DNA of 64,000 nucleotides from Tissierellia bacterium KA00581. GTDB lineage: Bacteria > Bacillota > Clostridia > Tissierellales > Peptoniphilaceae. Shown here piece by piece: positions 1 to 54,825 of the stretch. How positions within the stretch are numbered: position 1 is the stretch's first letter; each line of letters starts with the position of its first letter. The stretch covers positions 1 to 64,000 of the forward strand of contig KQ959659.1 of the NCBI GenBank assembly GCA_001552895.1, in the 5' to 3' direction. The notes beneath the pieces are model-generated. The model was given only the letters and a program-made list of their open reading frames with translations, did not search any database and had not been told where the DNA came from. A program made the translations under genes and the position numbers.

Positions 1-1361
1 TAGATGCACTAAAAGCTGAAATAATAAAGTCACATAAAGAAGAAGTTTTGAAAAAATCATTAAAAGAAGCGAAAGAAAAAGCAAAAGAAGAATTAAGAAA
101 AGAAGGTATAACTTCAAAACTATTCTTAGATAAAATAGACTTAGCAAAAACAAAAGAAGGCGTAGATGCACTAAAAGCTGAAATAATAAAGTCACACAAA
201 GAAGAAGTTTTGAAAAAAATAAAAGAAGAAGCAAAAAAACATGTAGATTTAAAGAATTTACCAGATAAAGTAAAGGAATTAGCTAAGAAAGATATTGATA
301 ATGCTATAACTGTTGATGATGTAAAAGATATAGTGTCAAGAGTTGATGTAATGGACAGAAAATTATCTGAAAAATCATTAAAAGAAGCAAAAGAAAAAGC
401 AAAAGAAGAATTAAGAAAAGAAGGTATAACTTCAAAACTATTCTTAGATAAAATAGACTTAGCAAAAACAAAAGAAGGCGTAGATGCACTAAAAGCTGAA
501 ATAATAAAGTCACACAAAGAAGAAGTTTTGAAAAAAACAAAAGAATTAGAAGCATTAAAAGCAAAATTAGAAGCATTAAAAATAAAATTAAAAGAATTAA
601 AAGCAAAATTAGAAGCATTAAAAGCAAAAAAATTAAAAAAATCAAATTCTGTTGATACTTTTAAATCTGGATATATGATGGATAGAACACCTTTTATGTT
701 ATTTGCATTATCTACATCTAATGAAAATAATGTTGAAAATCTTCAAAATGAAATAAATGGAACTAAAAATCAAATAGAAGATTTAGAAAAACAAATAAAA
801 GATTTAGAAAAACAAATAGAAGATTTGACAAAAGAAGATCCAGCACCGGTACCAAATCCAAATCCAGTACCAAATCCAATGCCAAATCCAAATCCAGCAC
901 CAAATCCAGCACCAGAAGCTGATAAAGAAGCAGAAAAGAAAGCTAAAGAATTACAAGAAACAAAAGAAAAGGCTATAGCAGAACTTAAAGAAGCATCAAT
1001 AGAAGATAAAGAATCTATAGCTAAGATAAATGCTTGTAAGAGTGTAGAAGAAGTAAATAAAGTAAAAGAAAATTTACTAAGTGAAAAGAAAGCTAAAGAA
1101 TTACAAGAAGCAAAAGAAAAAGCTATAGCAGAACTTAAAGAAGCGTCAATAGAAGATGAAGAATCTATAGCTAAGATAAATGCTTGTAAGAGTATAGAAG
1201 AAGTAAATGAAGTAAAAGAAGATTTATTAAAGCAAAAGAAAGGCATAGTTGTTAAAAAGAAAAAACAAAATACTCCTAATACTTCCATAGCAGGAGCATC
1301 TTTAGCTACTACAATTGTATCATTAGCTGGAGCTATAATGATTAAAAGAAAGAGAAGATAA
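1..1361 (+). CDS. GA-module (albumin-binding type) cell-surface protein, 5' partial
   Basis: The frame is open from base 3, inside a repeat, so the true start lies before the window; the TTG at 48 is internal. About 452 residues are visible. In order they are: the end of one GA-like module, a full module (codons at 57-218), a divergent spacer, a second almost identical module (375-536), a Leu/Lys/Glu coiled coil (about 540-830), a Pro/Asn-rich linker (840-916), two more divergent GA-like modules (about 940-1230), and a C-terminal hydrophobic stretch followed by KRKRR. The modules carry the pattern LKEAKEKA..EL...GITS and AKT.EGVDALK.EI, typical of GA modules that bind serum albumin in Finegoldia PAB and streptococcal protein G. 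The C-terminus looks like a sortase signal, but the motif region reads TPNTS rather than LPXTG. Albumin binding is inferred from the family. A terminator follows. Confidence 0.85.
   Translation, partial: DALKAEIIKSHKEEVLKKSLKEAKEKAKEELRKEGITSKLFLDKIDLAKTKEGVDALKAEIIKSHKEEVLKKIKEEAKKHVDLKNLPDKVKELAKKDIDNAITVDDVKDIVSRVDVMDRKLSEKSLKEAKEKAKEELRKEGITSKLFLDKIDLAKTKEGVDALKAEIIKSHKEEVLKKTKELEALKAKLEALKIKLKELKAKLEALKAKKLKKSNSVDTFKSGYMMDRTPFMLFALSTSNENNVENLQNEINGTKNQIEDLEKQIKDLEKQIEDLTKEDPAPVPNPNPVPNPMPNPNPAPNPAPEADKEAEKKAKELQETKEKAIAELKEASIEDKESIAKINACKSVEEVNKVKENLLSEKKAKELQEAKEKAIAELKEASIEDEESIAKINACKSIEEVNEVKEDLLKQKKGIVVKKKKQNTPNTSIAGASLATTIVSLAGAIMIKRKRR
57..536 (+). repeat. Two nearly identical 162-bp GA-module repeats, 318 bp apart
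   Basis: Bases 57-218 and 375-536 are almost identical (for example GCG against GCA in one codon). Bases 3-47 are the tail of another copy. The 318-bp offset keeps the reading frame, so copies can be gained or lost by recombination. A different spacer of about 50 residues lies between them. Confidence 0.9.
840..916 (+). repeat. Pro-Asn dipeptide repeat linker inside the surface protein
   Basis: A run of CCA/AAT-type codons encodes repeating P-N-P-x-P units. Such linkers act as wall-spanning spacers in Gram-positive surface proteins. The low-complexity DNA is prone to length variation. Confidence 0.75.
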
Positions 1362-1392: not shown

Positions 1393-1442
1393 AAAAAGAC
1401 TATCATATCTCTATTTAAAGAGATTTATGATAGTCTTTTTTT
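1393..1442 (+). terminator. Intrinsic terminator after the surface protein gene
   Basis: The arms AAAAAGACTATCATA and TATGATAGTCTTTTT form a long stem with an inner CTC/GAG pair, followed by a T run. It ends the surface protein transcript before the dehydrogenase operon. Confidence 0.9.
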
Positions 1443-31527: not shown

Positions 31528-32091
31528 TTATTGAGTTATTATAGGTAAAGTTATAGCTAAAAAATAATTTGTAATAGTTTCTGGTGATTGTATCATATTA
31601 TCTTTTATCCACCATTTAATTGTTTCTATAAAAGAGAGGCTAATGTGATTTTTTAAAAATTCTATTGGAACTTTATATATTTTTTTTCAACTAATATATA
31701 AGAGTCTATTATTTTATCTATATATTTTTTAAGATAACTTATAAATAGATAGCTACTTTCACAGTTTAATATTGCTGTTAAATTTTTTTGATGTTCTTTT
31801 AAGTGATATAAAATATGGCTTATTACTATTTTTGGATTATTTTTTTCATTTTCAAATTTTTTATTGCATTCTATCTTAAGCTCTGGTGAAAAAATATGTT
31901 CAAATACTTCTTTACATATCTCTTTTAATAAATCATCTTTAGTTTCAAAATGCATATAGAATGTGCTTCTTCCAATATCTGCAAGATTTAATATATCCTG
32001 CACTGTAATTTTATTGTATTTTTTTTTCTGAAAGTAATTGTGTAAATGCGTTAAATATTGCTTTTCTTGTTTTGTTTTGTTGTCTATTCAT
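31528..32091 (-). pseudogene. TetR family regulator with two compensating frameshifts in A/T runs
   Basis: The start ATG at 32091 follows GGAGG and gives MNRQQNKTRKAIFNAF. A T9 run on the plus strand (32019-32027) shifts the frame. The helix-turn-helix part (ITVQDILNLADIGRSTFYMHF) continues in another frame to a T8 run (31680-31687), where a second shift restores the C-terminal segment with FLKNHISLSFIETIKWW and a stop at 31528. Total length 564 is a multiple of three, matching an intact protein of about 187 residues. It is divergent from the metal ATPase pseudogene and probably controlled it. Slippage, real decay or sequencing error could explain the shifts. Confidence 0.8.
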
Positions 32092-32210: not shown

Positions 32211-32253
32211 TTAATTGTAATATTTTTGAGAATTAAAATCAAGAGGAGGTAAT

Positions 32254-34127
32254 ATGATAAATTCAATTTGTAATTTTTGTGAAAGTAAAAAAGGAACTAT
32301 AATTTCAAGTTTATTTTTTATTTTAAGTGTATTTTTAAAATTATTTAATTTAAATTTTAAGTATGCGATCTTTATTAGTATTATTATTTCAGGATTTCCT
32401 TTTTTAGTTTCTGCACTTCAAACAATATTTTTAGGTAAAATAAAAAATTCTCTTTTGATTTAAGTTGCATTAATAGCATCAATTTTAATAGGTGAATATT
32501 TTGCTGCTGCTGAGATTAGTATTCTTTTACAAATAGGTGAATTTTTAGAAGATTATACTATAAATAGGGCAAAAAAGGGAATTTCAAAGTTGATATCTTT
32601 ATCTGCTAAAAAAGTTAAAATTGTAAAAAAAGAAAATAACATTTCGACTTTGAAAGAAGTTTATGCTTCAAATGTTAAAATATCAGAGATAATAAGAGTT
32701 TTTTCAGGAGATATAATCTCCCTTGATGGAGTTGTAGTTTCAGGGCAAAGTGTAGTTGACCAATCAACTTTAACTGGTAATCTTTTCCAGTAGATAAAAA
32801 AGTAGATGATTTAGTTTATTCAGGAACTTTAAATTTATCTGGTAGCATTGATGTTTTAGTTACAAAAGAAGCAAAAGATTCATCTATACAAAAATTAATT
32901 ACAATTGTCCAAAAAGCACAAAAAGAAAAAGCACCAACTCAACGTTTAATTGATAAATTTGCAAGTTTACTTGTTCCTTTAGCTTTGATTATAGCTATAT
33001 TAACTTTTTTAGTAACATTATTTTTAGGTTTTGAAATAAGTGATTCAATAAATAGAGCTGTAACAGTACTTGTTGTATTTTGCCCTTGTGCATTATTTCT
33101 TTCAACTCCAACTGCAATAATGGCTGCTATAGCTATAGCTACTAAACATAATATCATAATTAAATCAGGTGAAGTTTTAGAAAAAATGGGAGAAGTTAAT
33201 AAAATAGCATTTGATAAAACTGGAACTTTAACATATGGAAAATTAATAGTAGAAGATATTGTAAATTTATCTAATATTTCAAATGAAAAGTTTTTAGAAA
33301 TAATTGTAAGTTTAGAATCAAAAAGTGAACATCCAATAGGAAAATCAATTTTAGAATTTGCAGAAAAAAATAGTATTTCCAATACAAATGTTGAAGAATT
33401 TAAAGTACTACAAGGAAAAGGAATAGAAGGTATTATATCTTCTAAAAAATATTTTTTAGGAACAGAAAAATATTTAAAAGAAAATTTTATAAGTTTTGAC
33501 AATAGTATGTTTCAAAAGTATAGAAATGAATCAAAATTAGTTATACTATTAGCAGATGAAGAAAATTTTTTAGACTTTATAACTCTTTGTGATACATTAA
33601 GAGAAAATTCTATATCTACTATAGAAGAATTAAAAAAATTGTCAGTAGAACCTATTCTTTTAACAGGAGATAATAAAATTTCAGCTAATTATTTTTCAAA
33701 AAAACTTGGTATTGAAAATGTAAAAGCTGAACTTTTACCAGAAGAAAAATTAAATAATATAAAAAAATTAAAAAAAGAAAATGTAGTTTGCATGGTAGGA
33801 GATGGAATAAATGATACTCCAGCATTAAAACTTTCAGATGTTTCTATTGCAATGGGAAAATTTGGTAGTGATATGGTCATTGATACAGCAGATATTACAC
33901 TAATTTCAGACGATATTTCAAAAATACCTTATTTAAAAAAGCTTTCAAATAAAACATTAAAAACAATAAAGTTCAATATAGCTATATCGCTTATTATAAA
34001 TATTGTTGCTGTTTTTTTATCTACACTTGGACTTTTAAATCCATTAATAGGAGCAATAATTCATAATGCAGGATCATTAATTGTAATTTTAAATGCAACA
34101 TTACTATATGATAGAAAATTTGATTAA
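32254..34127 (+). pseudogene. P1B-type heavy-metal ATPase, broken by a stop and a frameshift
   Basis: Fragments span 1874 bases, enough for an ordinary ATPase of about 624 residues lacking an N-terminal metal domain. A TAA at 32461-32463 interrupts the frame after the first two helices. Near 32778 one base is missing from the expected GGTGAATCT (TGES region), shifting the frame. The rest from about 32780 to 34127 is intact and holds CPCALFLSTPTA, the phosphorylation motif DKTGTLT, SEHPIGKS and GDGINDTPALKLSDVSIAMG. The CPC motif and C-terminal HNAGSLIVILNA suggest Zn/Cd or Cu export. AGGAGG precedes the ATG. The gene should be inactive unless the lesions are assembly errors. Confidence 0.87.
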
Positions 34128-39773: not shown

Positions 39774-39807
39774 ATGTGTATGAATGATATATCATGATTT
39801 TTTAATG

Positions 39808-39872
39808 ACTTATATATGCTTCGAATATGGCGAAGTGTTTCTACCTAAATCCGTAAAATTTAGACTATAAGT
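39808..39872 (+). ncRNA. Purine riboswitch aptamer, guanine type
   Basis: P1 arms ACTTATA and TATAAGT enclose P2 (GCTTCGAATATGGCGAAGT), the J2/3 core GTTTCTACC and P3 (CTAAATCCGTAAAATTTAG). The J3/1 reads GACTAT: the C (39865) at the position equivalent to residue 74 of xpt pairs with guanine, whereas an adenine switch has T. The P1 3' arm continues into AAGTTAGAT, which can pair with ATCTAACTT of the terminator, giving an antiterminator when no ligand is bound. The genes it controls are a xanthine permease and xanthine phosphoribosyltransferase, as in Bacillus. Confidence 0.97.
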
Positions 39873-39893
39873 TAGATTTTTTATTTTGTATTA

Positions 39894-54698: not shown

Positions 54699-54712
54699 AA
54701 ATATGTTAATTT

Positions 54713-54825
54713 TAAAGGCTACCCAAGACTGTAGGGACTTTCGTTTAAAAATCCTACATAGGTGGAAATACTTTGTTGTGTATTTTTATCTCTTCTTGGA
54801 AGAGATTTTTTTATATGTAGCCTTA
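54713..54825 (+). ncRNA. Ribosomal protein L10 leader
   Basis: The outer stem TAAAGGCTAC (54713-54722) pairs with GTAGCCTTA (54817-54825). Inside lie ACCCAAGACTGTAGGGAC-like and GGTGGAAATAC elements typical of the rplJ leader that binds the L10-L7/L12 complex. It lies directly before rplJ and holds an attenuator-like terminator. The identification is by pattern and position. Confidence 0.85.
54788..54812 (+). terminator. Attenuator terminator inside the L10 leader
   Basis: ATCTCTT (54788-54794) pairs with AAGAGAT (54800-54806) around CTTGG, followed by TTTTTT. Protein binding to the leader could favour this stop, as in the Bacillus rplJL leader. Confidence 0.75.

Follow-up and report, generated by a model that had tools for sequence, protein, structure and literature searches.

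The window, i.e. the whole stretch of 64,000 nucleotides that we analysed, opens with the 3' part of a gene encoding a protein with GA-type modules, in which bases 57-218 and 375-536 are two among at least four near-identical module copies. On balance, we favor the reading that the product would be a PAB-like, wall-associated rod of GA-type modules whose PAB-type class was recently amplified, with albumin as the putative ligand. The genome (1.60 Mb in 68 contigs) belongs to the family Peptoniphilaceae, which is also that of Finegoldia magna. Base 1 of the window is base 1 of contig C61 (window = C61 1-64000) and, since the window opens there, the open frame at 3-1361 is without its 5' end. The following features were delineated:

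1-56, plus strand: tail of a further PAB-type module, cut by the contig start; 55/56 against 163-218
3-1361, plus strand: 3' part of the GA-module surface protein gene, an open frame of 452 codons with its stop at 1359-1361
57-218, plus strand: m1, GA-like module of PAB type, first repeat copy; PF17573 74.4 bits (cut-off 25), 161/162 against 375-536
219-374, plus strand: spacer, a diverged GA-type three-helix module; PF01468 22.2 bits, predicted helices between m1 and m2
375-536, plus strand: m2, GA-like module of PAB type, second repeat copy; PF17573 74.4 bits, same protein as m1
540-650, plus strand: 7-residue (21-nt) repeats rich in Lys, Glu, Leu and Ala, coiled-coil-like; four copies spaced 21 nt
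762-831, plus strand: second short heptad-like stretch (IEDLEKQIKDLEKQIEDL), from the translation and a 21-nt repeat
838-918, plus strand: proline-rich P-N-P repeat in imperfect copies
933-1082, plus strand: c1, GA-like module of a second class (E27/S28, Cys); PF17573 52.3 bits, tree support 99/98
1083-1232, plus strand: c2, GA-like module of the second class, tandem copy of c1; PF17573 54.9 bits, 91-93% nucleotide identity to c1
1266-1358, plus strand: degenerate sorting signal, in which TPNTS precedes a hydrophobic stretch and a KRKRR tail; LPXTG model, below cut-off
1393-1440, plus strand, 3' of the stop: probable terminator, a 24-nt inverted repeat (arms 88% complementary) followed by T residues

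The terminator was graded as probable because a strict terminator scan made no call at 1393-1440.

The 452-residue protein matched the GA-like family PF17573 four times (E 6.5e-58 overall, 192.9 bits in total), and m1, m2, c1 and c2 each passed the curated cut-off (25 bits) singly, with 52-74 bits. The GA module family PF01468 (curated cut-off 24 bits) was matched in the window gene by the spacer only, below cut-off at 22.2 bits, and one stretch of contig C66 scored 29.5 bits against it in the genome search and 23.7 bits in the protein scan; profile analysis thus bore out the GA assignment with PF17573 for m1, m2, c1 and c2, and fell short with PF01468 (spacer 22.2 versus 24). A PDB sequence search returned the consensus albumin-binding domain 2n35 and PAB GA as best matches. 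Consistently with this, the best Foldseek match of an AlphaFold2 module model (pLDDT 89.9) was PAB GA 2j5y (rmsd 0.5 Å, TM 0.85), and the model lay at an rmsd of 0.4 Å from the GA module bound to human albumin in 2vdb; owing to the small size of the domain, the Foldseek E-values were modest, the best being 0.015. The sequence-only reading had proposed a surface protein with GA modules and had staked this on the presence of a GA fold: PF17573, the PDB matches and the AlphaFold2/Foldseek comparison all support the proposal, the predicted fold being that of PAB GA to within 0.4-0.5 Å. NCBIfam matches to PspA and SMC-like families were rejected as Lys/Glu-rich low-complexity similarity far below cut-off. 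A contig search with the whole 452-residue protein as query gave no match, while one with an alignment of the modules did.

The near-identity of 57-218 and 375-536, on which the sequence-only reading was built, was confirmed at 161 of 162 nucleotides, far above chance. Since the sole difference, G at 71 versus A at 389, is synonymous in an alanine codon (GCG/GCA), the m1 and m2 proteins are identical. We ruled out that the repeat is a by-product of a Lys/Glu-rich protein, as in 200 codon shuffles of the frame the best 162-nt self match averaged 88.8 and reached 95 at most. When the protein was held constant and codons were redrawn from the gene's own usage (n = 2000), 142.7/162 was expected and 153 was the maximum; because 161/162 exceeds this expectation, common ancestry of m1 and m2 at the DNA level is required. 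The repeat edges are sharp (14-15/15 inside the module, against about 5/15 upstream and 7/15 downstream), and a fourth near-identical copy lies on contig C66 (153/162). This DNA-level repeat supports the recent in-frame duplication or gene conversion that had been suggested, two processes that are indistinguishable here. The accompanying description of the spacer and the C-terminal modules as diverged was right in that the spacer at 219-374 is unlike both copies and the C-terminal modules diverge from m1 and m2, but it overlooked that the latter form a separate tandem pair, c1 (933-1082) and c2 (1083-1232) sharing 93% nucleotide identity by the repeat finder and 91% in our own register.

The 5' half of the gene very probably lies on the minus strand of contig C66, where a 731-residue open frame with four GA-like modules runs without a stop up to the contig end; C66 and C61 are the sole sites of GA-like domains in the genome. 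The C66 frame has a YSIRK-like signal peptide scoring 16.8 bits (cut-off 20), and the N terminus is absent from the window part. Both contig ends lie inside repeats: the terminal 34 nt of C66 are found again at C61 241-274, and the 34 nt that open C61 at 163 and 481. The two reading frames agree across this inferred join. Most simply, the two contigs would be parts of one gene, lacking between them about 206 bases at the least and, in addition, 318-base units in any number; a single protein would then carry two classes of GA-like module, with eight or more modules in all. Synteny was unusable as proof of this join, both flanks being without a GA gene in the five sister species, in which a UvrD-type helicase comes after the flavoprotein gene and, in the two species read in detail, an oppA-like gene precedes the pyruvate dehydrogenase E1 gene; neither the UvrD-type helicase nor the oppA-like gene was found in the window or on C66. 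If the join holds, the gene sits here at a rearranged junction (flanks on C66, L037, and in the window from 1632 on), because both flanks have other neighbors in the five sister species.

In a module tree of 46 columns, m1, m2 and two C66 modules grouped with PAB GA and with Finegoldia and Anaerococcus modules (support 99/98), so that the amplified repeats are PAB-type modules. The remaining modules, c1, c2, C66_m1 and C66_m3, formed the second class together with an Anaerococcus array (support 99/98), with Glu-Ser at positions 27-28, where PAB has Phe-Tyr. Among the older module copies, amino-acid changes outnumbered silent ones in raw codon counts, with 18 versus 2 for C66_m1 against C66_m3, 8 versus 3 for c1 against c2, and 6 versus 2 for m1 against C66_m4, a comparison that leaves out C61_m1 versus C66_m2 and C61_m1 versus C61_c2 (one codon out of register). 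The four second-class modules of this species share the position of a cysteine (KINAC or KINSC; window 933-1232 and the minus strand of C66, L037), which is unusual in Gram-positive surface proteins and is missing from the Anaerococcus relative.

Among the six genomes of the genus that were compared, all of them small (1.5-1.7 Mb), GA-like domains were found in this species only and in none of the five others. Within the family, 19/130 genomes carried them, in five genera and mainly in Anaerococcus and Finegoldia; widening the search to the order (249 genomes) added no further genome with GA-like domains. One relative is encoded on pFMC, a mobilizable plasmid of F. magna, and Anaerococcus G095 (L075, C2:1677762-1678556) has five tandem GA-like modules at 162-nt spacing, whose protein sequences agree fully over the 48 residues matched. 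The economical reading is that the gene was gained from a relative and then amplified locally, the alternative being loss in the sister species. The module count, which had been suggested to be variable between strains, may plausibly be so, given the contig break within repeats and the parallel Anaerococcus array; one genome of this species was compared.

The exchange of GA modules between streptococci and anaerobic cocci is a textbook example of module shuffling, and several known systems offer themselves for comparison. With PAB of F. magna (PDB 1gab/1prb/1tf0/2j5y/2vdb), the protein shares the three-helix GA module (57% identity over 46 residues) and a modular surface architecture in the same bacterial family; it differs in combining two classes of GA-like module, eight or more modules in all, within one inferred protein, in its degenerate sorting signal and in the F27L/Y28F/A31K/V38K changes of helix 2, albumin binding being putative here. 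PF17573 modules are also shared with proteins from Anaerococcus (G095 among others), from F. magna DSM 20470 and from the F. magna plasmid pFMC, and G095 has, in addition, the five tandem near-identical copies at 162-nt spacing; however, the copies in G095 fall into the second class, and these proteins differ in module order, number and flanks, the loci not being orthologous.

Compared with the helix-2 face of ALB8-GA, m1 and m2 have the changes F27L, Y28F, A31K and V38K, and they keep I32, K36, T37, L44, K45, E47 and I48 of the PAB albumin face, residues taken, in part after the 1tf0 structure, to touch albumin. Since the face is partly kept and partly changed in this way, we put albumin binding by m1 and m2 at somewhat better than even, while binding by c1 and c2 is unlikely, judging from their residues. 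The suggestion of a host-binding antigen therefore appears plausible for the duplicated PAB-type modules and unlikely to hold for the C-terminal ones, which are without the aromatics of the albumin-facing helix. In the favored account, tandem three-helix GA-type modules would form a rod-like, wall-associated surface protein of the kind of F. magna PAB, with two module classes of which the PAB-type one would have been amplified in frame recently, by unequal recombination or gene conversion, the unit being either the module (162 nt) or the module with its spacer (318 nt). The protein would most likely serve to keep serum albumin of the host bound to the cell through the PAB-type helix 2 and the following loop.

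A possible, though doubtful, alternative is that the protein is a structural stalk without albumin binding, like the Ebh/EbhA rods of staphylococci. Its GA-type bundles on long shared helices would then hold out a tip or make the surface layer stiffer, and the repeats would have been copied under selection for length rather than for a ligand. This reading draws on the 162-residue unit m1-spacer-m2, which, as predicted from sequence alone, consists of three bundles that share the long helices linking them (H33-64, H86-121; pLDDT 91.8) and loosely matches EbhA 2dgj and BibA 6poo, on the lack of albumin-facing aromatics in the spacer and the second-class modules, and on the presence in the same genome of two other GA proteins of PF01468/DUF1542 type. 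Yet the likeness to EbhA/Ebh of Staphylococcus (PDB 2dgj, 4kjm), a rod of three-helix bundles on long helices, comes with only 16-18% identity, and the repeated modules here belong to PF17573 and fit PAB rather than Ebh. The N-terminal domain of BibA from group B Streptococcus (PDB 6poo), a helical adhesin and the top Foldseek match of the 162-residue unit, agrees with it in loose overall shape only (17% identity, TM-score 0.43, rmsd 10 Å). Moreover, the amplified modules are precisely the PAB-type ones, nearest to true albumin binders and retaining the I32/K36/T37/L44/K45/E47/I48 set.

The changed residues of helix 2 may leave room for other partners. In the protein G domain, albumin is bound mainly by the second helix and the loop that follows, and variation at residue 21 is presented in a review as a likely mechanism of species specificity in albumin binding (PMC3962080); in our own alignment this residue equals PAB residue 27, one of those changed here. 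A second Finegoldia species has lysine or arginine at position 31 in each of its two modules (G063_a, G063_b), and these group with m1 and m2 (support 82/81), so the change at 31 looks inherited rather than noise. It seems to us rather unlikely that a single surface protein pairs two module classes and is amplifying a PAB-type class whose albumin face has been rebuilt around K31, the basic residue shared with this second Finegoldia, so as to bind an albumin of another kind or some other host protein. We consider it improbable that the ligand is a host protein other than albumin, or albumin from one particular host, bound via the changed helix-2 face (L27/F28/K31), given that no tool points to any ligand and that position 31 varies anyway, being A, L or Q in relatives. 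It is very improbable, finally, that the near-identity arose in assembly, by collapse of short reads from several modules or by insertion of one copy twice. The contigs do break within the repeat, in a genome of 68 contigs, and copies are missing at the contig edge; both named copies nevertheless lie in one contig, one base apart in sequence, with different flanks and a unique 156-nt spacer between them, and a further, more divergent copy is present on C66.

The heptads at 540-650, together with weak PDB matches to coiled-coil trimers, suggest a coiled coil, and the proline-rich repeat at 838-918 is a probable wall-spanning region. Against the LPXTG sorting-signal model (TIGR01167), the tail scored 12.7 bits, below the cut-off of 15.9 and over model positions 8-33 only, which, like the YSIRK score below its own cut-off, speaks against the favored account; other proteins of the genome end in LPKTS or LPQTN tails, and a sortase gene is present on contig C45. 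Two other surface proteins (L038 2843-5926 and L039 3167-5482) combine LRR, DUF1542 and PF01468 GA modules, with very similar C-terminal GA regions, LPKTS tails and a stretch of N in each.

A literature search on GA modules in Parvimonas found no paper, the sole co-occurrence with albumin-binding being a citation. The general picture of GA modules is unchanged by this gene; its interest lies in one species having at least eight GA-like domains in a recently copied array while the five compared congeners have none, in the natural variants of the albumin face that it offers and, if the module count varies, in a locus for strain typing.

Elsewhere in the window, a heavy-metal-type P-type ATPase gene at 32230-34127 looks broken into three open pieces, interrupted by a stop codon in frame near 32461 and by a change of frame near 32785, and a divergent TetR-like frame lies upstream of it at 31662-32087. 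Rfam models identified a purine riboswitch at 39790-39887 and a ribosomal protein L10 leader at 54704-54820.
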